IMG/VR virus record: IMGVR_UViG_3300030451_002095
Location: 1 to 61,128 of that record
Length of the DNA stretch: 61,128 nucleotides
Direction: 5' to 3' (one strand)
Source of the DNA: a virus
In this document: positions 3,845 through 61,128 of the stretch, piece by piece
Numbering within the stretch: position 1 is the first letter of the stretch
Layout of the letters: every line of letters starts with the position of its first letter
Translations under genes and position numbers: made by a program
The notes under the pieces: model-generated
Seen by the model: only the letters and a program-made list of their open reading frames with translations
The model's database searches: none
Told to the model about the DNA's origin: nothing

Positions 3845-6800
3845 ATGAACGAAGAAGCGATTAAAGATGGTTATAATTACTTTGTGCAAACAGGGTATAA
3901 TGGAACTATAGACGACTATAAAGCACTGTTACAGCAAAACAATGAAGCTTTTAACGATACTTATAAATACTTTGTTAACACAGGGTACAATGGAACCGTA
4001 GAAGACTTTCAAACTTTAGTAGGTGTTACGGAGGTAAATGTCACTGACACTGAAAAAAAAAATTCAAAATCTTCACAGGAAGTGGAGGAAATGTTGGTTT
4101 CAGGTATACCACAAGTTCAGGACATCGATGGTACTTTGGAGTCTTCAGAGTCAAAGATAAATCAAGATAATACCGCACAGCCCGAAGTTAATCAAAACGA
4201 ACAAGACGTAAACCAGGATAACACCGCTCAACCAGAAGTCAATGTAGACGAGCAAGAGGTTGACCAATCACAAGGAACTCAACAAAAAGTAGATCAAGAA
4301 ATATTAGATAGATTTGCGGCCATACAGCAGTTAGAGCAGGATTGGTGGATAAAAAGAGCTAAAGGAAATAAAGAACAAGCGGCATTAGATTTTTCTACAA
4401 CAAGAAAGGGGGATCTTACTGAAGCGGAGTTAAATGAGTATATGAGTTTAGGAGGTGTGAACGCTGTTCCTATTGAAGACGATAATAATCAAGCAACAGA
4501 AATAATACAACCTCAACAAATTGTACAAAGGTCTGAAAAGTTTGGGGGAGGAAAAGCATTATTAAACACAATTAAAAATATATTTAAAGGACAAGACTCT
4601 TCTGGAGATAGAGCTTATAATAGAGAGTATTTTGCAGAAACAGCGGACGGAGAAAGAGTTGATCCGGAATTAAAAAAATATATTGAAAGTGACGATCAGT
4701 TTACTCAGTCCCTGCAACATGTTTCTCCAAGGGCTATAGCGGATCCAGAGTCTTCCACAATACCTTTAATGGAATATCATTTTACACAACACGGGTATCA
4801 TTTTGAAGCCGCTGATGCGGCCGGAGATGGAATGAACGCGTATGGGTACCGAAAAGAAGGCGATAAGTGGTTTAAAGTAAAACACTATGTTAACCTGGAT
4901 AGATTGTGGTCAAAAGCATCAACCGCCAAGGCTCTTAGAGATTTTTTAGAAGAAAACAGAGAAGACACACGAGAGTATGTAGAGCTAACTAAAGGAGACT
5001 TAGAAAAACAAACCGTGTTTCATGATCAAGACCAGGTGGATAGAACGGTTAAAAAAATGACCGAAAGAGAAGACGCTCTTCGAGATGATATAAAGTCTTA
5101 TTTAAAACAGGTAAGAGATTACAACACTATCAAAGACCTTCCTGAAGATGAAGTAATTTATATAGAAGATATAAACGGAAAACAAATGGCCACTACTCCC
5201 GCAGCCCTACTGCAAGAGTTAAAATTCCAACGACAAAAATTAGTAAGAGAGCGTGAGAATTTAATTAATATTGGAAGTGAGTTAGACAGGGATATAGGTT
5301 TATGGTATATGCTTAGAGGTCAACAAGGAAGTAGGTCTGGAAGTTTTTTACAGAACATGGTATCTGGGGGAGCCTCTGATATTGGGGCGTTTGGAATGGA
5401 TTTTGTAATAGACACGGGAACTGAAATTGCTGGTTTATTTGATGAAGACTTAGATACGGACGCTGTTAAAAAACAAATTAAATTTGGTCAAGATGGTGAA
5501 AGACCAAATATGTCTCCTTTTTCTCAATACGCTAACAGAACAACTCAACGAATGGAGTCTGAAAAAGGTATAGTGGGAGGAGCTGAAGCAGCTTTTGACC
5601 AGGCTCTTGGTATGGAAAATAGAGAGCGTATTAGACAGAAAATGGAGCGTGAAAATATATTTGTAGAAGACAATCCTTTTTCAAATGAAGATTTAGAAGG
5701 AGGAAAAAAAGGCTGGTGGGAATGGGTAGGTAACCTTGGTTTTTATGGTGCTGCAAGAAGTATTCCGGCTATGGTGGGCCCTGGAAAAATTAGACTTTTA
5801 AATATGGGGGGTCAAGCTTACACTTATCTTAATAAAGAGATGGCGGGTAATGAATTTTTTGATGATATATCTGAAGGAGAAAAGAAGCTTTTCGCTATAC
5901 CTTTAGCTGTGGTAATAGGGGTTTTGGAAAATGTAGGTTTTAGAAACATGAAGCAAATGAATAGTATTAGTTCTAAAGTCTTAATGAATGTGTTAGGGAA
6001 GAGCGGTAAGGATGTGACAGGACGAAATTTTAAACAACTGGTTAAAGCTGAGGTTAACAGTATGATAGCTCAAGGATTAATTAGAGTAGGAAATGCGGGT
6101 GTTGCTGAATTTGAAACAGGATTTATGCAGGAACTTGCAGATATAACATTTAAAAGTATTTATAATACTGTTAGAGATAGCGATGCTTTTCAAACTCCTA
6201 AAAGTACGGAAGAGTTTTTTGGTCAACTATTAGTTGGAGCTACCTCGGAAATGATTGGTGGTTTTGTAATAGGAACCCCGGGAGCTATAGTGTATGCCGC
6301 AAAAGATGGGGACTTTACTCAAGTAAGCGATGATACTTTTAAAGTTTTTGAAGAGGTTCATAATCAAAAGCCCGTTAGAGATTCTTTTGTAGCTAAAATA
6401 AAGCAGAAAATATTAGACGGGAGTATGACCAAAGAAGAAGGAGATAGACAAATTGCTATCTACGATCAAGTGGTGGGGGTTATGAATCAAATTCCTACAG
6501 ACCTCCCGATGAGCTCTAAGAAAAAACTTTTAGGAAACCTATTAAGACAACAAGAGTTAAATGATTATATCGATAAGTATAATAAACAATTAACTAAAAA
6601 ACAACAAAGCGAATTAAACTTTTTAAAAGATCAGGTAGATGTTATTATTAAAGAGGGTGATAAAATAAATGAGATAGTTAAAAAAACCAAAAAAGAAACA
6701 GGTGAAGAAACTCAAGATGTGGAGGTAACTGATCAGGAAGCGAGGGAGTCTTTAGAGCAAGACAATGAATTAAATGCTCAGCTGGAAAAAAGAGGTATGC

Positions 6801-9800
6801 CTAATTCAGGACAAAAACTTATTACCCAAGAAACTATAAATGAAAGAAAAGAAAAGTTAAGACAAGAAAAATTAAATAACCAAAAAAATAAAAAAGATGC
6901 CATTCAAGAGTCAAGCACAACGCAGGTGGATGTACAAACACAAACCACAGATAGCGGCCAAATGGGAACGCAAGACGTCACGGGGGAAACTACCACAGAG
7001 GGTCAAGTCGAAAGTGAAACAGATACTGGGACGCAGAAAGAGACGGAAGTAGGGGATCCATCTATTGAGCAAGAGGTGGGCGATTTAACTGCTGCTATGG
7101 GGGGTCCAATAGATAATCAAACTGAAGGAAGTCCAGAAACAACAACTCAAACAACCACTTCGTCTGTAGAGGTAGATAGTGAAACTAATAATGTTACTAT
7201 GCAAAAAAGTGACGGTACAAGCGTTTCTTTACCTGGTGTAAGTGTAAGTGATAATGTAACCGTTACTGAAACCGCAGGGGACCCTACTGTTGTAAGGATA
7301 CAAAAAACATTATTAGACCAAGCTAAGAAAGCGGGTAAGGCTATTAAAAAATTATTACCTAATGTAAATATAGTAATACACGCTACAGAAGAGGCATATA
7401 ATCAAGCTGTAAGTCAAGATAGTAAAGGGACAAAAGGAACTTTTGCTCCAGCTACTAATACTATACATATAAACGCTCCTAAAGCGTCAAGAACAACAAT
7501 ACCTCATGAAATATTTCACGCTATTTTATTTAATAAATTAGGGATAGATAAAAATATTCAAGAGGTTACTGATAGAATGTTGAAGGCGGTTATTAAAGCG
7601 GTTAAAGATCCAAAGATTAAAAAAGACTTACAAGACTTTGCTGACGGTTACGCTATTGAAGACCAAAGTGAAGAGCAGGTTGCGGAGTTATTTGCTTTAT
7701 TAGCGGCTAATTATGCTAAATTAAATAAACCTTCTAAAAATATTATCAAACGATGGTTACAGGCTATCGCTAACAAACTCGGAATACCAGCATCTATAAC
7801 TACTGATTTTACCAAAACAGAACAAGACATTGTAGACTTCTTTAATATATTAGCCGGTAAGGTACAAACAGGAGAGGAAATACAAGAGTCTGATATTGAA
7901 GTAATAACAAAAAAACCTAAAAAGAAAACTAAAAAGTCAGAAAAGAAGCCTAAAAAAGAAATGACTAAAGAGGAGGAGGCTAAAATAGCGGACGAGCTTT
8001 ATGTAGAGAGTAAGATTAAAGAAGAGGAACAAAAAGAAAAAGAAAAACGAAAGGCTTATGAAGAAAGGGAAGCTGAATTGGAGCAGATAATGAGAGACGA
8101 AACAGGGCTTCAAGATCCAACTATTGGTTATGTAATGGAGCAGATACACTCTTATTTTTCAGGTATAACTAAACAGGATTTTGATAAATTTGGAGACCCT
8201 AATTTAAGAAAGGGAAATCCAGCCTTAAACTTTTTATTAAGAAGAAACGCTTCACCTTTAGATACTCAAAGTATAGAGTTAAGCGAGATAGCTGGTATAG
8301 AAATTACCGAGCAGGATTTTATTGACTACATGGTAGATAGAAGTAACAACCCAGGAAAATATGTTAAGTCAAAGGAAAAGAATCAAAAGGATATAAAAAA
8401 CAAAAAAGCAGGTTTAGATAAATTAATTCGTATGTATAACATGAACCCTAAAGGGTTTATTGGTACAAATATTTATTCTTTACAAGACTTAGAAAACTGG
8501 GCAGCATCTTTAGGTTTTGGTATTGGTAGAGCAAGAGTTAGAGATAAGAGCGCTTACGATTATGGAAGGTTAACAGGTTATTACTTAACTAAAAACGGAA
8601 GGTTTTTTAACCCACGATCAAAGGAAAAAAATCAAAAAAACATAGACGAGAAGAATCAAAAAGTATTTAATAAAGAGGATAATCCTATTGATATTATTAA
8701 TGATGCCCGTAATCAAAACTTTACAGACCCAGCTATTTATGATTACTTAACTCGAGTTAGAAAGTTCCCTAAAAGAGAAATTAAAGAGTTAATGAAAGTG
8801 TATGACGAAACACTTCAAACTGTACCTCCTTCTGTAGGAGCAGTTAAAGGTGGTATGTTAAATGGTTTAAAATTATATAACAGAGTATTTAAGAAATATA
8901 TTCAACTTCAAAAGGCTAACGTTAAGAATAAATCTAAAAAAAGTCAGCAAGAAATAATGGACTTAACAATGGATTATTTAAAATCTCAACCTGAGTTTAA
9001 GGCGTTAAAAGACAAAGGCTCTGATATTCTTTCTACAAAACAAAGAGTTATAGAGATAGATATGGTTAAAGCTTTAGCTGGACCAACCAGTCCTGATTTA
9101 GCTCAATCAATAAAAAAATCAATATTAATTCTTAATTCTAAAAAATTAGGAGTAAGAGAAATAAAAGAAATCCAAAGAGAACTGAGAAACTTTTTAAGAA
9201 AAGTTTTACCTAAAGATCTTTATACCAAAAAGAATGTAACTGATTTATTGAAAGAAATAAATGAAGCTACTCCAGATAATATAGAAAATATTAAAAATAA
9301 AATAGTAGAGTTTGCTGCTGAGAAAAACAATATTAGACTTGCTGAAGAGGTAGAGAAATTATTAAACCCTAAAGATAGAGTAAAAATTAATAATATATTA
9401 AAGGGTGTTGGTATAGATGACGCTACTCGTAAAAGATTAGATGGTATTAGAAGATTGCTTAATCCTAAATCAAAAGATGGAAATCTTAAAACTGATATAG
9501 GGGTAAGAGATTACTTAGCTAAATTAGAAGAAAGATATAATGAAATTAATAAAAAAGCTAAGAAGACAGATCAGGATTTTAAAGATATGACCGACCTTCA
9601 AATGGCAATGAATTTAATAAACGCTCAAGAGCTAATGAGCGATAAAGATATAGCCAAGGTAGCCACATTAAGCCAGTTAAAAGATGAGTTAACTCAAATT
9701 ATATTAACAGGAAGAACTAAATTTAAAGAAGAGTTAAGGGCTTCTCATTTAGAGTATGTAAGGCAGTTTAAAGAAGTGTGGCAAGACATTACTGGTAAAA

Positions 9801-12286
9801 AAGACTTTTTTGAAAAAGAAGCTAAAAGACAGCTTAAGGAAGAAGGATTTGATAATCCTACGCAAGAACAGTTAGATGATAAAATTGCAGATGTTATTGA
9901 GCAGGTTCGTAAAAAACTTCCAGAAGAAAAGAATTTAGCTGAGTCTAAGAAAAAACAAAACGTATTTAAAAGAGGGTTAAACCTTTATAAGGATATTTTT
10001 AAGACGCTTGGAAACTTAATGAACAAGCACTCAGATTTATTTTTATTAATGGATAAAATATCTAAATTACCAGCAAGATTGTTTGAGGGGGTTACACAAA
10101 CTGAAATAACTCAAAGGGTAGATGATGCTACTCGAGAATATAAGCAAGGGATGTTAGTTTTTGATGCTCTTCTTATTGATAAATATAAAGAGCTGTTCGG
10201 GAAAAAATACAAAAAAATAGTAGGCTCTTTTACAAATAAAATTGCTAATGTTTCTTATAGAGACAGAAGTAGAATTGATAAGGCGCAGGCAGAGTATGAT
10301 GCTAACCCTACTAAAGAAAATCAAAAAAAGCTTGAAGATGAAATAGGAAGATTAGGAATAGACTTAAGTCCTAACCAAATGTATTACTTGTATAATCAAT
10401 ATAAAGACCCTTTAAATCATCCTGGTTTTGAGGCTCAGTTTGGAGAAAACTATCAAGATGTAATGAAAGATATAGAGGCCAGGTTAGAGAAAGATTATGC
10501 TCAATTGAAAAAATTTGCAGATTGGCAAGTAGACGTTTTGTTTCCTTTAATGTATCAAAAATATAATAAAGCATACAAGGACTTGTACAGAATTGACATG
10601 CCATATAATGTGAATTATGCAGGTATGGTGTATAGAGAAGGTATTGAGCCAGAAGGGGTGGACTTACTATCTGGAAAACCTCAGTATCATAATGTGGTTT
10701 CAGCGAACTCTACTAAGTTAAGAGTAAATAGTAAGAAAGCTATTAAACCTGTGGACGGTACAGACGCTTTATATACCTATGCTCGAGACATGGAATATTT
10801 CAGTGCGTATGGTAGGGTGGTTAATGATATGCAAAAGTTATTTAGTAATGAAATAATAAAACAAACTATTGATAATATTTACGCTGGAAATGTTAACGAG
10901 ATGATTTCGGTTGCTATTGAAAAATTAGCCAACAAAGGAAACTTTAAAGACAATCTTCAGTTTGACACAGCGGTAAATATAATGCAAGACTTGTTTATAC
11001 TTTCTCGTTTAGGTATTAACCCTGTAGTTACTTTAAAACAGTTAACGTCTTTTGTTACTTATGCTAATGATATTGGTTTTGTTAATTGGATGAAGAACGC
11101 GGCAGCCTCTCGTTTGCTTAGTGGAAAATCTGTAACAGAGGTATGGAAAGAGATAGCTGCCAACTCAGTGTACCTACAGGATAGGGACGCTAAAAGCATT
11201 ACTAAGGCTTTAGAGATGTATACGGATAAAAAGTTAAACGAGGGAGATCCTATCCGTAATGTGACAGGATTACGAGCGGACCAAAGACAAACCTTGATGG
11301 ATATTTTAATGTATACTACAAGGATTGGGGATAGAGGAGCTATTTACTTAGGAGGGGTTCCTAACTATGTGTATTATAAAAATCAAGCCTTAAAAGCAGG
11401 AAAGACCGAACAAGAAGCTATAGATATAGCGATTAAAAAGTTTGAAAGAGATACTAAACGAACTCAGCAGTCTACCGATCTACAAGATAGAGATTATTAT
11501 CAAACTCGTAATTTCTATATGAGAGCTATTAATATGTTCTTAACAACTCCTAAGCAATATTTAAGAAAAGAAGTTTATGCTATGAGAAACTTCTATCGTC
11601 TTATGGCCTCAGGAGGTAAAGAAGGAAAGGGTACTAAGTTTCAAAACTTTAGAACATTTGTTACTTACCATGTTGTAATGCCTATGTTCTTCCAGTATGT
11701 AGCTAACGGTTTCCCTGGATTATTAGCTGACTGGGATGAAGAAGATAAAAGCGATTTAATGAGAGCTGCCGCTTTAGGAAACGTAAACGCTTTAGTTATA
11801 TGGGGAGAGATAGCTGTAAACACAGCTAATATAGTTCAAGGAAAACCAGAGTCTTTTATTGGGTTTAAAAACCTTCCTTTACTACAGCAATTTGAAATAT
11901 TCTTTAAGAACCTATACAGATATAGAACGTATAAAACTCCAGAGAAAAAAGAAGAGGCTGGATTTAAGGCTCTAAGAAGTTTAGGAGAATTTACAGGCCT
12001 GCCTATAAATAATATTAATAAAATATTCCAAAACCTAAAAGCTTTAGAGAAAGGAGAGGAAGACCCAGGCAAAGTGTTAATGAGATTGTTTAACTATAGT
12101 GAGTATCAAATTAAAAGTGAAGCTGAAAGATCTCAAAAAAGAAAGAAAGAAAGAAAGAAAAGCACTAAAAACGGAAACCCAATGATGCAAGAGAACCCAA
12201 TGATGCAAGAGAATCCGATGATGAAAGAAAATCCAATGATGAAAGGAAATCCTATGAAGAGAGAAAACCCTATGATGAAAAAATAA
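3845..12286 (+). CDS. Giant polyvalent virion protein with zinc-metallopeptidase domain, 2813 aa
   Basis: The largest gene of the phage. Two copies of a 'YFV-TGYNGT--D' motif occupy residues 8-55, followed by acidic low-complexity repeats containing NTAQPEV. A zincin motif H1221-E-I-F-H1225 has a likely third ligand E1281 (EEQVAELFALLA). Long Lys/Glu helical regions follow, and the last 700 residues resemble domains of phage 'large polyvalent proteins'. The C-terminus carries six NPMM-type repeats. Such proteins are usually packaged and delivered with the DNA (family knowledge). No RNA-polymerase DxDxD motif was found, unlike giant proteins of crAss-like phages. The peptidase call rests on the motif. 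Confidence 0.65.
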   Translation: MNEEAIKDGYNYFVQTGYNGTIDDYKALLQQNNEAFNDTYKYFVNTGYNGTVEDFQTLVGVTEVNVTDTEKKNSKSSQEVEEMLVSGIPQVQDIDGTLESSESKINQDNTAQPEVNQNEQDVNQDNTAQPEVNVDEQEVDQSQGTQQKVDQEILDRFAAIQQLEQDWWIKRAKGNKEQAALDFSTTRKGDLTEAELNEYMSLGGVNAVPIEDDNNQATEIIQPQQIVQRSEKFGGGKALLNTIKNIFKGQDSSGDRAYNREYFAETADGERVDPELKKYIESDDQFTQSLQHVSPRAIADPESSTIPLMEYHFTQHGYHFEAADAAGDGMNAYGYRKEGDKWFKVKHYVNLDRLWSKASTAKALRDFLEENREDTREYVELTKGDLEKQTVFHDQDQVDRTVKKMTEREDALRDDIKSYLKQVRDYNTIKDLPEDEVIYIEDINGKQMATTPAALLQELKFQRQKLVRERENLINIGSELDRDIGLWYMLRGQQGSRSGSFLQNMVSGGASDIGAFGMDFVIDTGTEIAGLFDEDLDTDAVKKQIKFGQDGERPNMSPFSQYANRTTQRMESEKGIVGGAEAAFDQALGMENRERIRQKMERENIFVEDNPFSNEDLEGGKKGWWEWVGNLGFYGAARSIPAMVGPGKIRLLNMGGQAYTYLNKEMAGNEFFDDISEGEKKLFAIPLAVVIGVLENVGFRNMKQMNSISSKVLMNVLGKSGKDVTGRNFKQLVKAEVNSMIAQGLIRVGNAGVAEFETGFMQELADITFKSIYNTVRDSDAFQTPKSTEEFFGQLLVGATSEMIGGFVIGTPGAIVYAAKDGDFTQVSDDTFKVFEEVHNQKPVRDSFVAKIKQKILDGSMTKEEGDRQIAIYDQVVGVMNQIPTDLPMSSKKKLLGNLLRQQELNDYIDKYNKQLTKKQQSELNFLKDQVDVIIKEGDKINEIVKKTKKETGEETQDVEVTDQEARESLEQDNELNAQLEKRGMPNSGQKLITQETINERKEKLRQEKLNNQKNKKDAIQESSTTQVDVQTQTTDSGQMGTQDVTGETTTEGQVESETDTGTQKETEVGDPSIEQEVGDLTAAMGGPIDNQTEGSPETTTQTTTSSVEVDSETNNVTMQKSDGTSVSLPGVSVSDNVTVTETAGDPTVVRIQKTLLDQAKKAGKAIKKLLPNVNIVIHATEEAYNQAVSQDSKGTKGTFAPATNTIHINAPKASRTTIPHEIFHAILFNKLGIDKNIQEVTDRMLKAVIKAVKDPKIKKDLQDFADGYAIEDQSEEQVAELFALLAANYAKLNKPSKNIIKRWLQAIANKLGIPASITTDFTKTEQDIVDFFNILAGKVQTGEEIQESDIEVITKKPKKKTKKSEKKPKKEMTKEEEAKIADELYVESKIKEEEQKEKEKRKAYEEREAELEQIMRDETGLQDPTIGYVMEQIHSYFSGITKQDFDKFGDPNLRKGNPALNFLLRRNASPLDTQSIELSEIAGIEITEQDFIDYMVDRSNNPGKYVKSKEKNQKDIKNKKAGLDKLIRMYNMNPKGFIGTNIYSLQDLENWAASLGFGIGRARVRDKSAYDYGRLTGYYLTKNGRFFNPRSKEKNQKNIDEKNQKVFNKEDNPIDIINDARNQNFTDPAIYDYLTRVRKFPKREIKELMKVYDETLQTVPPSVGAVKGGMLNGLKLYNRVFKKYIQLQKANVKNKSKKSQQEIMDLTMDYLKSQPEFKALKDKGSDILSTKQRVIEIDMVKALAGPTSPDLAQSIKKSILILNSKKLGVREIKEIQRELRNFLRKVLPKDLYTKKNVTDLLKEINEATPDNIENIKNKIVEFAAEKNNIRLAEEVEKLLNPKDRVKINNILKGVGIDDATRKRLDGIRRLLNPKSKDGNLKTDIGVRDYLAKLEERYNEINKKAKKTDQDFKDMTDLQMAMNLINAQELMSDKDIAKVATLSQLKDELTQIILTGRTKFKEELRASHLEYVRQFKEVWQDITGKKDFFEKEAKRQLKEEGFDNPTQEQLDDKIADVIEQVRKKLPEEKNLAESKKKQNVFKRGLNLYKDIFKTLGNLMNKHSDLFLLMDKISKLPARLFEGVTQTEITQRVDDATREYKQGMLVFDALLIDKYKELFGKKYKKIVGSFTNKIANVSYRDRSRIDKAQAEYDANPTKENQKKLEDEIGRLGIDLSPNQMYYLYNQYKDPLNHPGFEAQFGENYQDVMKDIEARLEKDYAQLKKFADWQVDVLFPLMYQKYNKAYKDLYRIDMPYNVNYAGMVYREGIEPEGVDLLSGKPQYHNVVSANSTKLRVNSKKAIKPVDGTDALYTYARDMEYFSAYGRVVNDMQKLFSNEIIKQTIDNIYAGNVNEMISVAIEKLANKGNFKDNLQFDTAVNIMQDLFILSRLGINPVVTLKQLTSFVTYANDIGFVNWMKNAAASRLLSGKSVTEVWKEIAANSVYLQDRDAKSITKALEMYTDKKLNEGDPIRNVTGLRADQRQTLMDILMYTTRIGDRGAIYLGGVPNYVYYKNQALKAGKTEQEAIDIAIKKFERDTKRTQQSTDLQDRDYYQTRNFYMRAINMFLTTPKQYLRKEVYAMRNFYRLMASGGKEGKGTKFQNFRTFVTYHVVMPMFFQYVANGFPGLLADWDEEDKSDLMRAAALGNVNALVIWGEIAVNTANIVQGKPESFIGFKNLPLLQQFEIFFKNLYRYRTYKTPEKKEEAGFKALRSLGEFTGLPINNINKIFQNLKALEKGEEDPGKVLMRLFNYSEYQIKSEAERSQKRKKERKKSTKNGNPMMQENPMMQENPMMKENPMMKGNPMKRENPMMKK
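12176..12283 (+). repeat. Six tandem 18-bp units encoding NPMM(Q/K)(E/G/K)
   Basis: Six in-frame 18-bp units end exactly at the stop codon of the giant protein. The first two are nearly identical in DNA; later ones drift (one reads NPMKRE). They give a Met/Asn/Pro-rich flexible tail. An A/G tetranucleotide tract (GAAA repeats) lies just upstream at about 12137-12160. Confidence 0.9.
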
Positions 12287-15869: not shown

Positions 15870-18277
15870 ATATCTAAATTTGATTGAGTATCATAATGAG
15901 ATTTATTAACAAACTCTATCCATCTACCCACTCCATCTCTTCCTTCTATTGCTCTACAATCATACTTAAATTCAGCATAAGATTGCAACCATTTATTAAA
16001 CCTATTTCTACTCACAGTCATTTTTGATTTAGGAGCAAAGTCAGGATTCTCTTCAATAAAATCTAAATACAAATCGTTTTTATAAATCTTTTTACTTCTA
16101 ATAAGTTTGTCGGTTTTTTGCCCACCTATCGCTCCGCACCACTCGGCAAACTCATGACACGTTTCTGCTGAAAATTTACGAGTCTTAAGATTAACAAAGT
16201 CGCTTTTTAATAATCCCTTATCTAAATATAACTGTAAACATTTAATCATGTAATTATCAAACTGGCACCAGTCATTATCATCCCACTCTCCAAACATTAA
16301 TTTTCCAAACTCTACTAATGGGGTAAATTCTTTAGTGTAATACTGAGTTAATTCTAACTCCCATTTTCTTCTTTCAAAAGAACTTCCGGATCCTTTGATT
16401 GCATAATTAGTTGTGATTGCGATTTTAGGAGATTTACTAAATGGAATTTTAATAGCGTCTTTGTTTTTCTTTTCAAGAGTAAGCCCTTCTGTTACCACAC
16501 TAAACAACCTCTCAAAATCAAAATGTTTTTTAACATCATCAAAGCAAAGTATTTGAGTGTCGGCTGAAACTAATTGATAAGCAAAAGATCTTTCAAAGTT
16601 AAATGATTTTCCATCTATTACTACTAACTTTTTCATGTGTCCCAGTCCGGTCATAAACAACCCTTTTCCAGTACCCCCTTCAGGGTTGTCAGAAATTAAT
16701 TCATCATTAAGTATAGTGGCAGGACAATAAGATAGGTTCTTCCATCCGTGTAATAAAAATCCAATTGTAGACTCCATTGAACTCATTCTTTTATCGGTAC
16801 CTCCTGCAATATTCCCCACAAAAGTTTTATAATCACAATCAGTAATTTCACATATATCAAAAACTCTATCAATAACATGGTCTTTCCATACATACCCTCC
16901 TAAATCTAAATAATCAATTGGAGTTATATCGTCTTTTGTAACTTTAACCGCACAATTATTATAATACAAGTAGGCAGTGTCTTTATTATCCGCAATAAAA
17001 TAAACATTAATAGAGGACAATAAAGTCAAAAATTCTTCTCTAAAATATTTAACTTTTTCTGCAAAGTAATTATATACACTTATATCTTCAACATCTAATA
17101 AATAATTTAAGACAAAATCTTTTATCTCTTTTTCTGATGTATGATCTATTAAATTATTAGTAACCTTTACAAAGACATAATTTTTACTCCCCTCTGGGTT
17201 AAATTTATAAAACCCATTCTCCTCTAAAAATTTCTTAAAAGATATATGAACTATACTAATAACTCCTTTATCTGATTTACTCCAAAATTTTTGTTGAGAT
17301 TGTTCCTCCTCTAACCTTTCTACTACAGCGTTTACAACCGAATCATCCACATCTGTTTCATCTTCTAATTCTTGTTTTATTTTGGTCTTTGTTACACCTC
17401 TTCTTAACTGTTGTTTTACCCTGTTTACTTTATCCTCATCCTCATAATATTTTGTTCCAAAGTTTTGAGTTTGAGCGTAAGCAGAGTTTATTGTTCTTTT
17501 AACCTCAGACATTGGAAACCCTTGATGAGCAAAGTCGTTCATAATGTACTCTGCTAATGTTTTGGTTACTCCAAAATCATTAAAGGCTGAAGCCAGTATA
17601 AAAACATTATTATTTCTTTCTCCACTTTTTAATCCGTACTTTCTTTCCCACCACTTCATTAGGATTTCTACAATTTTATTTTCATCCGTAATAGGAATAG
17701 TTTGAACCCCTTTGTGTTTTATAACTTCTTGATACTCTTGTTCTGTTATTTGATTAAATACACTTGATTGCTCGTTAGTATATATTAATGGATCATAAGA
17801 TTCATAACAAACCCTTGAAACATTTTTACAAGTCTTATCAAAATAAGGAGAGTCATAATGTTTTTCCAATGAGTTAAAAAAGTTTTTATGATTCTCAACT
17901 TCATTAGGTATTTTTACTAAAACTTTTAATCCCAGTCCGCTTGGAGAAATAAATACCGCGTAAGTATATCTATCTTTTGTTATTCTTTCTTTTTCTTCCA
18001 AAAGAAGTTTATCCGACTCATACCCATCAAAATCTAAACAGATCAAACCACTGTGCTCTATCAAAGACGCATCGTTTCTTTTTGTAAATTTACCACTAAA
18101 ACATATCGCTGGTAATGTCTGCTTTAATTGATTTCTTTTTTCTTTATCTTTTTCTAATCGTATTGCTCGTACTATCTCTTGTGACGCTCCCTCTCGTATT
18201 CTTTCTACTATTATACCTACATCTCTATAAAAAGGTTGAGAAGTATCTTTAATATCCTTAAAAATTGTTATTTCCAT
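15866..18277 (-). CDS. Primase-helicase: BT4734-like N-terminus plus SF3/D5-type ATPase
   Basis: An 803-aa replication protein. Residues about 1-190 match the BT4734/VirE N-terminal pattern (HSGLICLDFDGYES, AVFISPSGLGLKVLV) common in Bacteroidota elements and thought to be primase-like. A helical middle follows. Then comes an SF3/VirE-type ATPase with Walker A NPEGGTGKG near residue 534, Walker B ILCFDDV and sensor IAITTNY. It probably unwinds and primes phage DNA. No phage DNA polymerase was recognised, so it must hand over to the host replisome (inference). A structured leader with its own promoter lies upstream. Confidence 0.85.
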   Translation of the reverse strand: MEITIFKDIKDTSQPFYRDVGIIVERIREGASQEIVRAIRLEKDKEKRNQLKQTLPAICFSGKFTKRNDASLIEHSGLICLDFDGYESDKLLLEEKERITKDRYTYAVFISPSGLGLKVLVKIPNEVENHKNFFNSLEKHYDSPYFDKTCKNVSRVCYESYDPLIYTNEQSSVFNQITEQEYQEVIKHKGVQTIPITDENKIVEILMKWWERKYGLKSGERNNNVFILASAFNDFGVTKTLAEYIMNDFAHQGFPMSEVKRTINSAYAQTQNFGTKYYEDEDKVNRVKQQLRRGVTKTKIKQELEDETDVDDSVVNAVVERLEEEQSQQKFWSKSDKGVISIVHISFKKFLEENGFYKFNPEGSKNYVFVKVTNNLIDHTSEKEIKDFVLNYLLDVEDISVYNYFAEKVKYFREEFLTLLSSINVYFIADNKDTAYLYYNNCAVKVTKDDITPIDYLDLGGYVWKDHVIDRVFDICEITDCDYKTFVGNIAGGTDKRMSSMESTIGFLLHGWKNLSYCPATILNDELISDNPEGGTGKGLFMTGLGHMKKLVVIDGKSFNFERSFAYQLVSADTQILCFDDVKKHFDFERLFSVVTEGLTLEKKNKDAIKIPFSKSPKIAITTNYAIKGSGSSFERRKWELELTQYYTKEFTPLVEFGKLMFGEWDDNDWCQFDNYMIKCLQLYLDKGLLKSDFVNLKTRKFSAETCHEFAEWCGAIGGQKTDKLIRSKKIYKNDLYLDFIEENPDFAPKSKMTVSRNRFNKWLQSYAEFKYDCRAIEGRDGVGRWIEFVNKSHYDTQSNLDI

Positions 18278-27628: not shown

Positions 27629-27790
27629 TTATTTATTTAAGTTTTGGTATAAAAATTTTATATAGTTTTTTTCAAATGTCTCTAAATTTTGGTATTGTTC
27701 CTTAAAGTACATGTGTTTGATATTTACTGGTATTTGGTTTTTATTTAACCATATTAACCAATCTTCAAAATGATAAATTTTTGTTTCCAT
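27629..27790 (-). CDS. Small protein downstream of hammerhead 1, 53 aa
   Basis: METKIYHFEDWLIWLNKN, then a Tyr/Phe-rich helical tail. The first gene downstream of hammerhead 1: its ATG is 27 bases past the 3' end of ribozyme stem I. After cleavage its mRNA would begin with a short 5'-hydroxyl leader. Function unknown. Confidence 0.55.
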   Translation of the reverse strand: METKIYHFEDWLIWLNKNQIPVNIKHMYFKEQYQNLETFEKNYIKFLYQNLNK

Positions 27791-27816
27791 AAATTTTTTA
27801 ATTTATATTAGTATTT

Positions 27817-27911
27817 GTTATTGACTGGGGGAAGTTTACCTGTGTACCTCTTTCGTGTACCTTATTCGTTATCCCCCAGTTTCGGACAATATCAGTCCTC
27901 ATCAGAATAAC
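27817..27911 (-). ncRNA. Type I hammerhead ribozyme, copy 1
   Basis: On the minus strand: stem I GUUAUU, core CUGAUGA (27905-27899), stem II GGAC-UGAUAUU-GUCC, core GAAA (27883-27880), stem III ACUGGGGGA pairing with UCCCCCAGU, then GUC at the cleavage site and AAUAAC closing stem I. All conserved core bases of the hammerhead are present. Cleavage is predicted between 27823 and 27822. An outer UAUUA/UAAUA pairing (27916-27920 with 27806-27810) could add a stem I internal loop for the usual loop I-loop II contact. It starts at the G of the stop codon of the upstream gene. Confidence 0.92.
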
Positions 27912-28084
27912 TATTTAATAACCTCGACAAACTCCATACTCTTAAACTCCTCTTTTAACTTTTCGTTTATCTCTTTTACTAACTCAATTTCACATCTTTC
28001 ATAAAATTTGATTAGTCCCTTATTTTTAGGGTTGTTTTCCTGTCTCAATTCTTTTAGAATTTTTTTACATTGTAATAAAGTCAT
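27911..28084 (-). CDS. Small protein between the two hammerheads, 57 aa
   Basis: A basic/acidic helical protein (LQCKKILKELRQEN, FYERCEIELVKEINEKL). Its ATG is 26 bases after the end of hammerhead 2 and its TAG stop overlaps the first base of hammerhead 1. Its mRNA segment would therefore be cut out on both sides. Function unknown. Confidence 0.6.
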   Translation of the reverse strand: MTLLQCKKILKELRQENNPKNKGLIKFYERCEIELVKEINEKLKEEFKSMEFVEVIK

Positions 28085-28109
28085 AACTTTTTAATTTTTA
28101 TTAGTGTTT

Positions 28110-28212
28110 GTTATTGACTACAAAGAGAAGTATTGAGATGAAATGTTCTTAAGGGTATTATTGAGAACCTCTCTTTGTAGTTTCGGACATTTTTAGTCCT
28201 CATCAGAATAAC
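28110..28212 (-). ncRNA. Type I hammerhead ribozyme, copy 2
   Basis: Same architecture as copy 1: GUUAUU stem I, CUGAUGA (28206-28200), stem II GGAC-UAAAAAU-GUCC, GAAA (28184-28181), stem III ACUACAAAGAGA with UCUCUUUGUAGU (12 bp), GUC, AAUAAC. Stem III has a different sequence from copy 1 but remains perfectly paired, so structure and not sequence is conserved. Cleavage is predicted between 28116 and 28115. It begins two bases after the stop codon of the gene at 28215. Confidence 0.92.
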
Positions 28213-28214
28213 TT

Positions 28215-28520
28215 TTATTCTCTATCAAATGGAATGTCTAACTCATTACATAGATCCAAACCGAACCAGTAGACAAGATGATTTACTAATTTTTCGTTAT
28301 CTTCAAAAGTCGTTTGTATTTCTCCAAACTCTTTATATTCTCTTATATTACAAATCATAACTCCCTCTCTTTCTCCTATGTTGTGAAGTTTTAACCACTG
28401 GGTGGCGTTGTGGTAACCGATTATATAATAATCTTCATTGAACATTGTAAAATGATTTTGGTCATCTGTATTAAAATTGTTGATGTGTTCGAGTAGTTCT
28501 TTTCTAACTGATTTTTTCAT
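28215..28520 (-). CDS. Hypothetical protein upstream of hammerhead 2, 101 aa
   Basis: N-terminal basic helix (KKSVRKELLEHINNFN), a central FNEDYYIIGYHNATQWLKLHN and an acidic tail with VYWFGLDLCNELD-like helix. Its stop codon is directly followed by hammerhead 2. Leader is AATAATACTAAAATTAAAAAG. Function unknown. Confidence 0.6.
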   Translation of the reverse strand: MKKSVRKELLEHINNFNTDDQNHFTMFNEDYYIIGYHNATQWLKLHNIGEREGVMICNIREYKEFGEIQTTFEDNEKLVNHLVYWFGLDLCNELDIPFDRE

Positions 28521-28550: not shown

Positions 28551-28775
28551 TTATCTGTTCTCGTATTCTTCAAAATCTAATCCGATACACTCACAAAGAA
28601 ACTCCTCTTCGAACCAAAATAAATCGTTTATTTCTGTTTCTGTTGGTGTTCTGTCGTGGTATAAATCCTCTAAATGAAACTCAATCTCTTTTAATTCGTT
28701 GTAGGTGAATTCGTGTTGTTTTCCTCCACTCCAAAAATTGAAGTTTGTCAAATCTAAATTTTTTGTGTAGTTCAT
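28551..28775 (-). CDS. First early gene: acidic protein, 74 aa
   Basis: Acidic helical protein (ELKEIEFHLEDLYHDRTPTETEI; WFEEEFLCECIGLDFEEYENR). It is the first gene behind the consensus promoter at 28817, so probably among the earliest expressed. Function unknown. Confidence 0.6.
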   Translation of the reverse strand: MNYTKNLDLTNFNFWSGGKQHEFTYNELKEIEFHLEDLYHDRTPTETEINDLFWFEEEFLCECIGLDFEEYENR

Positions 28776-28816
28776 AACTTTTTAATTTTAGTATTATTAT
28801 TCGTTTAATTATTGTA

Positions 28817-28824
28817 CAAATATA
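28817..28824 (-). promoter_or_regulatory. Main leftward early promoter
   Basis: Minus-strand TATATTTG (-7 element) with TTTG at 28849-28846, spaced 21 bp. This matches the Bacteroidota -33/-7 consensus. It lies about 42 bp before the first early ATG (28775). Confidence 0.75.
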
Positions 28825-28944
28825 GTATAAAACTATTTAATAAAACAAACTTTTTTTAACTTTTTTTTGTCCCAGTATGAAAATAATTTTTAAGTTATTG
28901 ATTTACAACAACTTACAGAGAAAAAAAAATTGTGTTTTTTTGGT

Positions 28945-29905: not shown

Positions 29906-31492
29906 ATGAAAGAACAAGGATACATTCCAAAAGACCTCTCTTTTGATAATGAGGCAAGAGAAAAATTAATATCGGGAATCTCTAAAATATCTAACGCAGT
30001 TAAATCAACTCTCGGCCCTCAAGGGCAAACTGTATTGATAGAATCAACAGAACACACTCAAGGATTAACTGTAACTAAAGACGGAGTAACTGTAGCTAAA
30101 TCAATATTCCTTATTGACCCAATAGAGAACCTTGCGGTTAGGATGATGAAACAAGCTTCAGAGAAAACAGCTAACACAGCTGGAGACGGTACAACTACTG
30201 CGATTGTTTTAACTGAGGCTTTGGTTAAGGCTGGGGAGAAATATATAGAGGCAGGGATGAGTACTATTAATGTAGTTAGGAAAATAAGGGAGATTGGTGA
30301 GGAGATAATTAAGAAAATAAAAAAAGAATCTATAGAGGTTACCGAGCAAATGCTTGCGGACATAGCAACCATATCTGCTAACAACGATAAGGAGATTGGT
30401 GATATTATAGCAAAGTCTTATAAAGAAGTAGGTCGTGATGGTATAGTAACGGTTGAGAGATCTCAAACTGACGAAACTTATGCGGAGGTTACTAATGGTA
30501 TAAAGGTGGATAGAGGATGGACATCTCCACTTTTTATTAATGATCAAAGAAAAGATGAGTGTATATATGATAATGTAAAGATTCTTATATGTGATGCTGA
30601 GATTAATAATATATTACAAATTGAGAATGTTCTTAAACCAATTATTAATGCAGGAGAGAAGTTATTAATTATTGGAGACTGTTCTCAAAATGTTATTAAT
30701 ACTATGGCTGCCAATGTTCAGCGTAACGGATTAAAGTTTTGTAATATAAAACCACCTTCATTTGGATACAAGACTCATGAGTTGATGCAGGATATTGCAT
30801 TTGCTGTAGGAGCTAAATACTTTTCAGAAAAGACTGGAGATGATTTATCTCTAATTAGACCAGAAGATTTAGGTCATGCAGATAAAATAATAGCAGGTAA
30901 AGATTCAACTATTATTATTAAGGACGGTGATATTGGTGAAGAGACTATAAAAAGAGTAGAAGAACTTAGAGAACAACAACAAAGATTAACAGCTAAACAT
31001 GAGAAAGACTTTATTAATGAAAGAATAGCAAGTTTAGTTGGAGGGATAGGATGTATATATGTAGGGGCCACTTCTGATATAGAGCAAAAAGAAAAATTTG
31101 ACCGAGTCGATGACTCGGTATGCGCGGTGCGCAGTGCCTTACAAGAAGGCATTGTTCCTGGGGGAGGATTACTTCTACATACTATAGCTCAAAAATATAA
31201 AGGTGATGATATAGCTAATAAAATAATGAAAGAAACTTTAGAAGCTCCATTAACTCAAATATTAAAAAACGCTGGATTATGTAAAGATGACATATATCAT
31301 AAGGCTGATAATTTACAAAAGAATGTAGGGTATAATGTTGTTACCAGAGAGTACGGAAATATGTTTGACATGGGGGTAGTTGATCCGGCCAGAGTTACTA
31401 TACAAGCATTAAGTAATGCTATTAGTGTAGCTACAACTATACTTACTACTAACGCTATAGTTACTCACGCAAGAATACATACTGATTCGTGA
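29906..31492 (+). CDS. groEL: GroEL-type chaperonin (phage-encoded)
   Basis: A 528-aa group I chaperonin, nearly full length. It has the N-terminal LGPQGQTV (usually LGPKGRNV), KDGVTVAK, ATP-binding G93-DGTTTA with D94, apical-domain VDRGWTSPLFIN and KPPSFGYKTHELMQDIA, catalytic D403 in RVDD, EGIVPGGG and VDPARVTIQALSNA. The C-terminal GGM tail of bacterial GroEL is absent. It should form an ATP-driven folding chamber, probably for capsid or tail proteins, with the GroES at 31772. A GC-rich patch with three perfect hairpins lies inside the gene at 31101-31151. It has its own promoter with ATGTCGAT sites upstream. Confidence 0.95.
   Translation: MKEQGYIPKDLSFDNEAREKLISGISKISNAVKSTLGPQGQTVLIESTEHTQGLTVTKDGVTVAKSIFLIDPIENLAVRMMKQASEKTANTAGDGTTTAIVLTEALVKAGEKYIEAGMSTINVVRKIREIGEEIIKKIKKESIEVTEQMLADIATISANNDKEIGDIIAKSYKEVGRDGIVTVERSQTDETYAEVTNGIKVDRGWTSPLFINDQRKDECIYDNVKILICDAEINNILQIENVLKPIINAGEKLLIIGDCSQNVINTMAANVQRNGLKFCNIKPPSFGYKTHELMQDIAFAVGAKYFSEKTGDDLSLIRPEDLGHADKIIAGKDSTIIIKDGDIGEETIKRVEELREQQQRLTAKHEKDFINERIASLVGGIGCIYVGATSDIEQKEKFDRVDDSVCAVRSALQEGIVPGGGLLLHTIAQKYKGDDIANKIMKETLEAPLTQILKNAGLCKDDIYHKADNLQKNVGYNVVTREYGNMFDMGVVDPARVTIQALSNAISVATTILTTNAIVTHARIHTDS
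31101..31151 (+). other. Three consecutive perfect hairpins inside groEL
   Basis: ACCGAGTC-GAT-GACTCGGT (31101-31119), TGCGC-GGT-GCGCA (31121-31133) and TGCCTT-ACAAG-AAGGCA (31135-31151). The 51-bp patch is GC-rich in an AT-rich gene and codes for the region with catalytic D403 up to the EGIVPGGG motif. Codon choice there differs from the rest of the gene. Confidence 0.7.
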
Positions 31493-31803
31493 CAAAAAAA
31501 TATTATAAAAAGCAGTGGGTTATTGTTTATCTTAATATTAATGATGTAAAAGGGGATTACGATGACTTTTCTTTTTCAGATTTAATAAAAAAAGATAGAT
31601 CATACGACTGGACGAGACTACTGTATGATATAGATAAAGAAGGATTAAAAGAGTTAATTGAGGTGGAGAAAAAAGATTCACATTATAGAGTAACACAAGG
31701 AAACCATAGGTTAAAGGTTTTACAATATTTATATCCACCTAATAATACATTAAGATTTAAATTAAAAAGACATGAGACCAATTGGCAAGTACATTGTAAT
31801 TAA
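31489..31803 (+). CDS. ParB/sulfiredoxin-fold-like protein, 104 aa
   Basis: Starts with GTG overlapping the groEL stop (GTGA). Residues 68-80, V-T-Q-G71-N72-H73-R74-LKVLQY, match the ParB-like nuclease-fold box; the upstream part has 'IVYLNINDVKG' and 'LLYDIDKEGLKELIEV', typical of this domain. The domain binds nucleotides in ParB and nucleases. Its job between the two chaperonin genes is unclear. It overlaps groES by 32 bases. Confidence 0.6.
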   Translation: MTKKYYKKQWVIVYLNINDVKGDYDDFSFSDLIKKDRSYDWTRLLYDIDKEGLKELIEVEKKDSHYRVTQGNHRLKVLQYLYPPNNTLRFKLKRHETNWQVHCN

Positions 31804-32029
31804 AACAATTAAAGAAGAATTAAAAACAGAATCAGGATTATTACTATCTAATGAAGATGCAAGCAGCTTTAGATATAAAAAAGGAAAGGTAGTAAAGCCA
31901 GGAACCGATGTTTCAGTAATCAATACAGACGATGTTATATATTATGATGGAGCGTCAGGTCACCAGATGTTAATAGAAGACAACCCTTACACGATTATCA
32001 CTGAGCGCGATGTCGTTGTTGTCTTATAA
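31772..32029 (+). CDS. groES: GroES-type co-chaperonin (phage-encoded)
   Basis: An 85-aa co-chaperonin. It starts MRPIGKYIVIKTIKEE, has a mobile-loop segment with the hydrophobic tripeptide at 'ESGLLLS', then GKVVKPGTDV, DDVIYYDGASG and a C-terminal IITERDVVVVL, in the order of GroES. It should cap the phage GroEL ring. It overlaps the ParB-like gene at its start and the antisense winged-helix gene at its end. Confidence 0.85.
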   Translation: MRPIGKYIVIKTIKEELKTESGLLLSNEDASSFRYKKGKVVKPGTDVSVINTDDVIYYDGASGHQMLIEDNPYTIITERDVVVVL

Positions 32030-32535: not shown

Positions 32536-32745
32536 ATGGCGAATCCATTTAAAAAGAAAGAAAAGACAAAAAATTACAAAAAGAAGCTCGCAACAATAAA
32601 GAAAAAGAAAGCAATAAAAAAAACTAAAACAGCGGCTACAAATCTTGGTAAACATATACATAACAATCTTGCGCAAAGAGATTTAACAAAACCTTTAAGC
32701 GAAACTCCACCTTTATATATGGGTAGACCATCTTATTCTTCTTAA
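32536..32745 (+). CDS. Lys-rich basic protein, 69 aa
   Basis: The first 40 residues are almost all Lys, Thr and Ala (KKKEKTKNYKKKLATIKKKKAI), then a 'LGKHIHNNLAQRDLTKPLSETPPLYMG' tail. First gene of the small basic cluster. Possibly DNA- or virion-associated; function unknown. Confidence 0.55.
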   Translation: MANPFKKKEKTKNYKKKLATIKKKKAIKKTKTAATNLGKHIHNNLAQRDLTKPLSETPPLYMGRPSYSS

Positions 32746-32747
32746 TT

Positions 32748-33101
32748 ATGCCAACAGTTACAGTAAACGGAAAGAAAAAAACATTCCCCTATAATGCAGT
32801 AGGTAAAGCTCAGGCGGATGCTTACGCAAGATTACATGGGGGTAAAAAGAAAAACAATCCCGGACCTAAAAGCGAGGTAAAGTCTTCTAAAAATAAAAGT
32901 AAATTAGATAAAGACATAGAAGAAAACAAGAACAAGAAAAAAGACACAAAGTTTGCTGATCAAATATATAGAAAATCAAAAGTAGACAAGAGTCTTGAAA
33001 AAGAAGGGTACCATACAGCTAAAGGTATTAGGGGAACAAAAAAATCAAAGTATCATGAAACAGGCATGGGTAATATGTCTGGAACATCAATGTTTAGTTA
33101 A
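32748..33101 (+). CDS. Lys-rich protein, paralogue of 37260 protein, 117 aa
   Basis: N-terminus MPTVTVNGKKKTFPYNAVGK is shared with the 51-aa protein at 37260 (FPYNAVGKAQAD). The rest is a Lys/Ser-rich disordered region ending in GMGNMSGTSMFS. Function unknown. Confidence 0.6.
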   Translation: MPTVTVNGKKKTFPYNAVGKAQADAYARLHGGKKKNNPGPKSEVKSSKNKSKLDKDIEENKNKKKDTKFADQIYRKSKVDKSLEKEGYHTAKGIRGTKKSKYHETGMGNMSGTSMFS

Positions 33102-37248: not shown

Positions 37249-37259
37249 AACACATAATT

Positions 37260-37415
37260 ATGCCAACTGTTAAAACAAAAGGAAAAAAGAGGGTGTTCCC
37301 TTACAACGCAGTAGGGAAGGCTCAAGCAGACTCTTATGCTAAAATGCACAAGGGTAAAAAGAAAAATAATCCAGGATATGGAATGGAAAGAAAAACTAAA
37401 TCTTCAGGATACTAA
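37260..37415 (+). CDS. Paralogue of the 32748 protein N-terminus, 51 aa
   Basis: MPTVKTKGKKRVFPYNAVGK, then AQADSYAKMHKGKKKNNPG, matching the first 40 residues of the 117-aa protein 4.5 kb upstream. A family duplication in the same phage. Ends in a TAATG overlap. Function unknown. Confidence 0.65.
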   Translation: MPTVKTKGKKRVFPYNAVGKAQADSYAKMHKGKKKNNPGYGMERKTKSSGY

Positions 37416-37917: not shown

Positions 37918-38306
37918 GTATATTAAATAAAATATTAGGAAAGGGCGCTTTAGATATTGCCGGAAAGGCTGCTGAAATTGCAGATAAATTTATTCAAACA
38001 AAAGAAGAAAAAGCTGCTTTCGAAATGGAAATGGAAAAAGTTGTAATTGAAGCCGAAGCTGAGATTCAAAAAAACGTAACAGAAAGATGGAAGCATGATA
38101 TGACCAGTGATTCTTGGTTAAGTAAAAATGTTAGACCAATGGTATTGATATTTTTAGTAGTATGTACTGTGTTAATGATATTTATTGACGGAGGGTCTAT
38201 TAATTTTGTAGTTGAAGAAAAGTGGACTTCTTTGTTGGAAATAGTTTTAATAACTGTGATTGGAGCTTACTTTGGAGGAAGGTCATTTGAAAAAATAAAA
38301 AAGTAA
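37914..38306 (+). CDS. Holin-like protein of the '3TM' type, 130 aa
   Basis: Basic/acidic helix at 1-60, 'WKHDMTSDSWLSKNVRPMVL', a hydrophobic segment (about 73-92), a short link and a second hydrophobic segment (about 106-124) ending GGRSFEKIKK. The 'SDSWLSKNVRP' box is characteristic of 3TM-type phage holins. Likely controls timing of host lysis. Confidence 0.65.
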   Translation: MSILNKILGKGALDIAGKAAEIADKFIQTKEEKAAFEMEMEKVVIEAEAEIQKNVTERWKHDMTSDSWLSKNVRPMVLIFLVVCTVLMIFIDGGSINFVVEEKWTSLLEIVLITVIGAYFGGRSFEKIKK

Positions 38307-61051: not shown

Positions 61052-61128
61052 ATGCCAACACCATACGAACCAGCAACAATATCATATAGTGAAGACGTCA
61101 AAGGATGGCCTTCTTTTTATTCTTTTTT
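61052..61128 (+). CDS. Start of the junction-crossing tail protein
   Basis: ATG at 61052 behind an AATAAATAATT leader. The first eight codons (MPTPYEPA) precede the terminal repeat; the frame continues at base 1 of the window. Together with 1-807 it makes a 276-aa protein. Confidence 0.75.
   Translation, partial: MPTPYEPATISYSEDVKGWPSFYSF
61076..61128. repeat. Terminal redundancy, right copy
   Basis: Identical to bases 1-53; lies inside the junction-crossing tail gene. Confidence 0.85.

Follow-up and report, generated by a model that had tools for sequence, protein, structure and literature searches.

What hammerhead ribozymes (HHRs) do in bacterial and phage genomes has been a standing question since 2011. 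It is raised again by the window considered here, the whole 61,128-nt stretch of the IMG/VR virus record IMGVR_UViG_3300030451_002095, in which two HHRs, named HH1 and HH2, lie on the minus strand at two successive gene junctions. A preliminary description of this DNA had read two complete type I cores with the cleavage positions listed in Table 1, placed them between stop and start codons, and proposed that they cut a polycistronic early mRNA between genes. Base-by-base re-reading reproduced the cores and both predicted cleavage positions exactly, and the placement, with geneB (27911-28084) flanked by the two ribozymes, was likewise confirmed.

Genome context and the early operon

The window carries a 53-bp direct terminal repeat, with identical copies at 1-53 and 61076-61128, so that the record is probably complete, either circularly permuted or a circular assembly. 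The phage genome of about 61 kb is related to cultured podoviruses of Flavobacterium and Cellulophaga; its terminase is 74% identical to that of the environmental podovirus MW202828 and 38 to 46% identical to those of the cultured Flavobacterium elemo and Cellulophaga phages. The ribozymes belong to a minus-strand operon running downward from about 28.8 kb, which contains genes for a helicase, a primase/helicase and a Sak-type annealing protein, and thus the designation "early" is a fair inference; these genes and the promoter-like site upstream support that part of the preliminary description indirectly. Since the -7 pattern alone does not rise above chance, the promoter is predicted from its position immediately before the operon's first gene.

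Table 1. Features of the minus-strand operon around HH1 and HH2, in order of transcription (window coordinates)
Feature	Coordinates	Strand	Description
Predicted early-operon promoter, Bacteroidota type	28815..28849	-	TTTG 28849-28846, 21 nt, TATATTTG from 28824
Operon's first gene	28551..28775	-	74 aa, PHROG 5149; ORF and PHROG match
geneA	28215..28520	-	101 aa, PHROG 10208, function not assigned; ORF and PHROG match; upstream of HH1
HH1, type I HHR	28110..28212	-	Stem I GTTATT 28212-28207 / AATAAC 28115-28110; CTGATGA 28206-28200; stem II GGAC/GTCC; GAAA 28184-28181; long, extended stem III with ~35-nt loop; GTC 28118-28116; predicted cleavage 28116/28115
Leader 1, A-rich	28085..28109	-	Expected to head geneB mRNA once HH1 has cut, preceded by 6 nt of stem I
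geneB	27911..28084	-	57 aa, function not assigned; ORF; HH1 and HH2 on either side
HH2, type I HHR	27817..27911	-	Stem I GTTATT 27911-27906 / AATAAC 27822-27817; CTGATGA 27905-27899; stem II GGAC/GTCC; GAAA 27883-27880; stem III with inserted side hairpin; GTC 27825-27823; predicted cleavage 27823/27822
Leader 2, A-rich	27791..27816	-	Expected to head geneC mRNA once HH2 has cut, preceded by 6 nt of stem I
geneC	27629..27790	-	53 aa, function not assigned; ORF; downstream of HH2

Several features outside the operon were recorded on the plus strand. GroEL-like (Cpn60, Pfam 198 bits) and GroES-like (Cpn10) chaperonins are encoded at 29906-31492 and 31772-32029, adjoining the early/late divide. 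The motif TATCTTTG(T/C)A recurs upstream of plus-strand genes (at 815, 29282, 33761, 36112, 38462, 51297 and 52499), and these sites resemble the -7 elements of Bacteroidota promoters and would serve late genes. One long ORF of 2813 aa, with no Pfam match, occupies 3845-12286 and is perhaps a large internal virion protein, and a 122-nt direct repeat with 75% identity occurs in the late region at 32743-32864 and 37255-37376, 4.5 kb apart.

Anatomy of HH1 and HH2

In both structures three helices surround the core, with stem I open-ended and stems II and III closed, which is the type I layout. HH1 starts 2 nt past the TAA of geneA (28217-28215), and HH2 overlaps the TAG of geneB (27913-27911) by one base. 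From the end of stem I to the next ATG we counted 25 nt for HH1 and 26 nt for HH2, which agrees with the 26-27 bases reported before within counting convention, and the predicted cleavage sites lie 31 and 32 nt before the ATG. HH1 and HH2 differ very little in the core, in stems I and II and in the 3' leader; in stem III almost the whole sequence differs, and the pairing is perfect in both. The leader common to the two junctions (AACAAAYACTAATAWAAATTAAAAA), of which leader 2 is a near-copy of leader 1, has no other copy in the window, even with three mismatches allowed; a related leader is found before the first two genes of the operon.

For HH1 as well as HH2, the hammerhead three-way junction is the predicted minimum-energy structure (z about -3). 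When 8 upstream nt are added to HH1, a competing GAAUAA/UUAUUC hairpin, in which geneA's end pairs with the 5' strand of stem I, is favoured in the fold, and this counts against the explanation that we consider best. The complete HHR structure, present twice in the real window, was found in none of 400 dinucleotide shuffles of it. Statistics on the core pattern alone were set aside as uninformative (2 found against 1.09 expected by chance), and so was the DNA similarity of the region to Polaribacter and Pelagibacter, which is due to neighbouring genes and not to the ribozymes.

Under R2, a covariance model derived from members in other phages, HH1 scored 51.8 bits and HH2 49.7 bits; the runner-up site in the window scored 15.3 bits, and no decayed HHR copies were found there by this search. 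Because a MAFFT alignment of members of mixed length placed stem III wrongly, we started the model from eight members of 58 nt each and then extended it. Rfam release 15 gave no match in the window at the gathering score, hammerhead matches being sub-threshold only, and this also counts against the explanation that we consider best; the gathering score of RF00163 is a detection threshold and not a defining feature. The identification of HH1 and HH2 as type I HHRs, predicted to cleave themselves, is well supported at the level of sequence.

The wider ribozyme family and its placement

IMG/VR was scanned with the core and one stem II sequence at a time, leaving stems I and III free, and the matched stretches numbered 24 with GGAC/GTCC and 103 with GGAT/ATCC. 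Stems I and III together with a UH cleavage site were present in 108 of 116 unique pattern matches, compared with complete stems I and III in 2 of 1500 sets of shuffled flanks. The strict pattern gave six matches in 84,980 bacterial and archaeal genomes, none of them a complete ribozyme, so that at this stringency the elements are mainly those of phages. With the covariance model, the records behind the pattern matches were found to hold between 1 and 14 HHRs each, and the parser returned 222 unique complete HHRs from 103 loci. The 222 comprise 54 distinct sequences for stem I, 96 for stem II and 190 for stem III; some come from phages related to each other, so that not all are independent.

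Of the 124 unique members found by the model, 122 have an intact core (120 in the tally, plus two rows bearing only an alignment insertion), in which nothing varies except the N of CUGANGA, a known free position of the hammerhead core. The covariance search of related phages suggested at the outset thus yielded, with the newly built models, many members with intact cores. All 16 stem pairs change on both sides, and 99.7% of cells are paired compared with 64% after shuffling; this alignment is fitted to the model, and therefore the unfitted pattern test (108/116) is the stronger evidence. Among some 40 members, taken from eight array loci, a single one (in L218) exceeds the Rfam RF00163 gathering score, and standard Rfam annotation misses nearly all of the family. 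One array member (L260, 3046-3101) has the core CCGATGA instead of CTGATGA and is possibly a weakened or variant ribozyme.

The members are compact. Stem I is exactly 6 bp in 195 of the 222, and the stem II hairpin measures 13 nt with a U-N-A-A-U loop in 198, the conserved loop positions being U (100%), A (88%), A (66%) and U (89%). Stem I is bordered by A on its 5' side in 96% of members and is followed by A in 96%, and its end pair is G-C in 93%. The conservation of the far end of stem I together with loop II suggests a tertiary contact that may replace the usual stem I bulge. HH1 and HH2 are atypical of the family, with a 7-nt loop II and long stem III inserts.

The placement of the family relative to genes is narrow. 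Predicted cleavage falls at a median of 23 nt before the ATG (interquartile range, 21 to 27), and the interval from 15 to 45 nt holds 91% of the HHRs, compared with 17% for positions drawn at random from these loci. In 111 of 211 cases the ribozyme and the stop codon of the preceding gene overlap, and in a further 80 that codon lies 0 to 12 nt ahead of the ribozyme; often it is formed by the UAA that closes the 5' strand of stem I or by the UGA within CUGAUGA. A rule follows from the family, namely a cut about 23 nt before a start codon, at the end of the previous gene. The HHRs of each locus lie on one strand in all of the 107 loci considered. A Shine-Dalgarno site is present in 49 of 205 leaders, and the leaders without one are mostly A-rich, as in the window. 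In the densest array (contig G053), an operon of 6.3 kb has fifteen HHRs, which leave hardly a junction unoccupied, and nearly all of them are followed by AAGGAGG and then by ATG at 19 to 26 nt. This large and mostly uncatalogued family is located at gene junctions in many phages.

Members in culture were found in the elemo phages MT497017 and MT497067 and in Methylophilales phage MEP301 (MW452941), with Cellulophaga phage phi19:3 (KC821608) as a possible, more weakly supported carrier; the question of function is therefore directly testable. In MT497067 the HHR lies at 17011-16950 on the minus strand, and an opposite-strand annotated "hypothetical protein" at 16937-17044 (L248, 4962-5069), probably a spurious ORF, overlaps it. 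Pelagibacter phage Jormungand carries a hammerhead (38217-38281; L247/L257) without an annotated gene start close downstream, and this counts against processing at junctions, being at least one exception in a cultured phage. The same hammerhead lies about 1.3 kb downstream of two ardA genes, and ardA also adjoins hammerheads in Agrobacterium and Legionella (PMC3088659).

The comparison with relatives indicates that the HHRs behave as modules. Orthologs of geneA are 70 to 78% identical in four relatives and 81% identical in G019, where the geneA and geneB orthologs (68% for geneB) are 29 nt apart with no ribozyme between them. In particular, the G019 leader AAACACTAAAATATAATATT matches the window leader AAACACTAATAAAAATTAAAAAGTT directly after the ribozyme, leader 1 having AAACACTAA in common with this junction, and it follows that HH1 forms a separate module, with the stop codon on one side of it and the leader on the other. 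The junction between the first gene and geneA in the window has the same leader type and no HHR (direct repeat D11, sequence). HH2 with the same stem III insert follows geneB in both the window and G019 (G019/L024), the gene downstream being different; the geneC ortholog of G019 (87%) has no HHR there. An HHR is also present after a distant geneB homolog (32%) in G001. No HHR was counted in G029, G031 and MW202828, and one or two in each of five others; being patchy among relatives, the HHRs are dispensable in the long run, which speaks against the explanation that we consider best, and the pattern of presence and absence points to modules that are gained, lost and recombined. Structure, conservation, placement and modularity can all be read from the sequences compared here.

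Probable processing, rival explanations and known systems

We consider it probable, at roughly 0.77, that the HHRs split the polycistronic early RNA into single-gene messages with short leaders and 5'-hydroxyl ends. Transcription would proceed leftward from about 28.8 kb, and each ribozyme would fold once its 3' stem I strand emerges and cut co-transcriptionally after GUC. The RNA of the downstream gene would then begin with 5'-OH-AAUAAC, followed by the A-rich leader of about 25 nt and the AUG, and that of the upstream gene would end in the stem II and stem III hairpins with a 2',3'-cyclic phosphate. Each downstream gene would thereby receive a short unstructured leader with a 5'-hydroxyl end, presumably a poor substrate for 5'-monophosphate-dependent decay, and each upstream gene a structured 3' end. 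The benefit may be that neighbours are uncoupled and their stability and translation set gene by gene, with both ends perhaps shielded from decay. That the RNA is cut in the cell, which chemical ends result and how stability or translation is affected are what we infer; similar phage arrays were cleaved in vitro and in Escherichia coli (PMC3088659). The processing originally proposed for this locus gains comparative support from the intact cores, the strong covariation and the fixed distance to the start codon. If cleavage is confirmed, these phages would split operons by RNA catalysis rather than by nucleases or separate promoters.

It is also possible to hypothesize, as a doubtful extension, that these are ribosome-gated operons, in which self-cleaving RNA at nearly every junction would yield single-gene messages with cleavage coupled to translation. 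Since the stop codon lies in or beside the 5' strand of the ribozyme, a ribosome ending the upstream gene would block ribozyme folding.

Other explanations were weighed against processing. The HHRs may be carried along passively, by a mobile or recombinogenic element or through the modular exchange of genes, with no role in expression, as their patchy presence and the swapping of genes beside them, for instance downstream of HH2, might suggest. This reading is improbable, since no associated mobile gene was seen at the window junctions, decayed copies are missing from the window, cores are intact and stems covary, and the spacing to the start codon stays constrained even where the downstream genes are unrelated. 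The intergenic position just upstream of start codons would also suit uncleaved regulatory hairpins, acting as translation attenuators, by sequestration of the ribosome-binding site or as transcription terminators. None of the 49 Shine-Dalgarno sites lies inside a ribozyme stem, though, no terminator-like site was found in the region, a T-rich tract follows only 3 of the 222 members, and the catalytic core residues, which a hairpin does not need, are almost invariant; we hold these hairpins to be very unlikely. The regulatory-hairpin, terminator and pure-passenger readings all fit worse than processing.

A further proposal takes retrozymes and viroid-like RNAs as its model: the paired ribozymes would excise geneB as an RNA of 293 nt (28115-27823), which would refold and be ligated by the ribozyme or a host ligase into a circle. 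The stem I strands of HH1 and HH2 are identical, so that stem I of HH2 can pair with the 5' end that HH1 leaves behind, and cross-compatible pairs make up 50% of adjacent pairs, 34% of non-adjacent pairs in the same locus and 11% of pairs between loci. Against this, local duplication explains the excess equally well, half of the adjacent pairs cannot re-form stem I, single HHRs are common, and circular products sought in similar arrays were not found (Perreault et al., PMC3088659). Circularisation is thus possible for the geneB RNA and not general, and as an account of the system it is highly improbable.

Gene-flanking hammerheads have a precedent in the work of Perreault et al. 2011 (PMC3088659), who described prophages in which single genes or short gene blocks are bordered by several hammerheads, frequently near integrase or prophage genes, and proposed processing; three tandem arrangements were cleaved in vitro and one in E. 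coli. For this reason, and because hundreds of such HHRs exist, the word "unusual" in the preliminary description needs to be softened. On such arrays we found nothing beyond that report in the open-licence PMC literature, and later work may exist; nor did we find in the same literature the set order of stop codon, ribozyme, leader and start codon, arrays that occupy almost all junctions, or the compact form that has not been catalogued. As in the 2011 clusters, at least two same-strand hammerheads flank phage genes, with geneB between HH1 and HH2. Different from them, the family described here has one compact type I form (6-bp stem I, 4-bp stem II and 5-nt UNAAU loop), a near-constant distance of about 23 nt from cleavage to start, a stop codon often inside the ribozyme, and arrays of up to about 15, with carriers that include, among others, relatives of Flavobacterium and Cellulophaga podoviruses.

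In the haloviruses HF1 and HF2, HHphage lies 13 nt upstream of the start codon of an early gene, and a transcript 5' end was mapped near its cleavage site (PMC3088659). It resembles the elements described here in standing shortly upstream of an early gene start; it was reported as a structural variant at one archaeal-virus gene, and is neither an array nor the compact type I form. Rfam RF00163 (Hammerhead_1) shares the type I topology and the core, whereas the window copies and most of the roughly 40 members tested score below its gathering threshold. Retrozymes and viroid-like RNAs also have two tandem hammerheads bounding an RNA unit, but in our case the HHRs stand between protein-coding genes in a DNA phage, and the likeness was compared for stem I compatibility only. 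Thus, clustered gene-flanking phage HHRs and the idea of processing were known in 2011, and what is new here is that the HHRs are denser, position-locked, more compact and largely uncatalogued.
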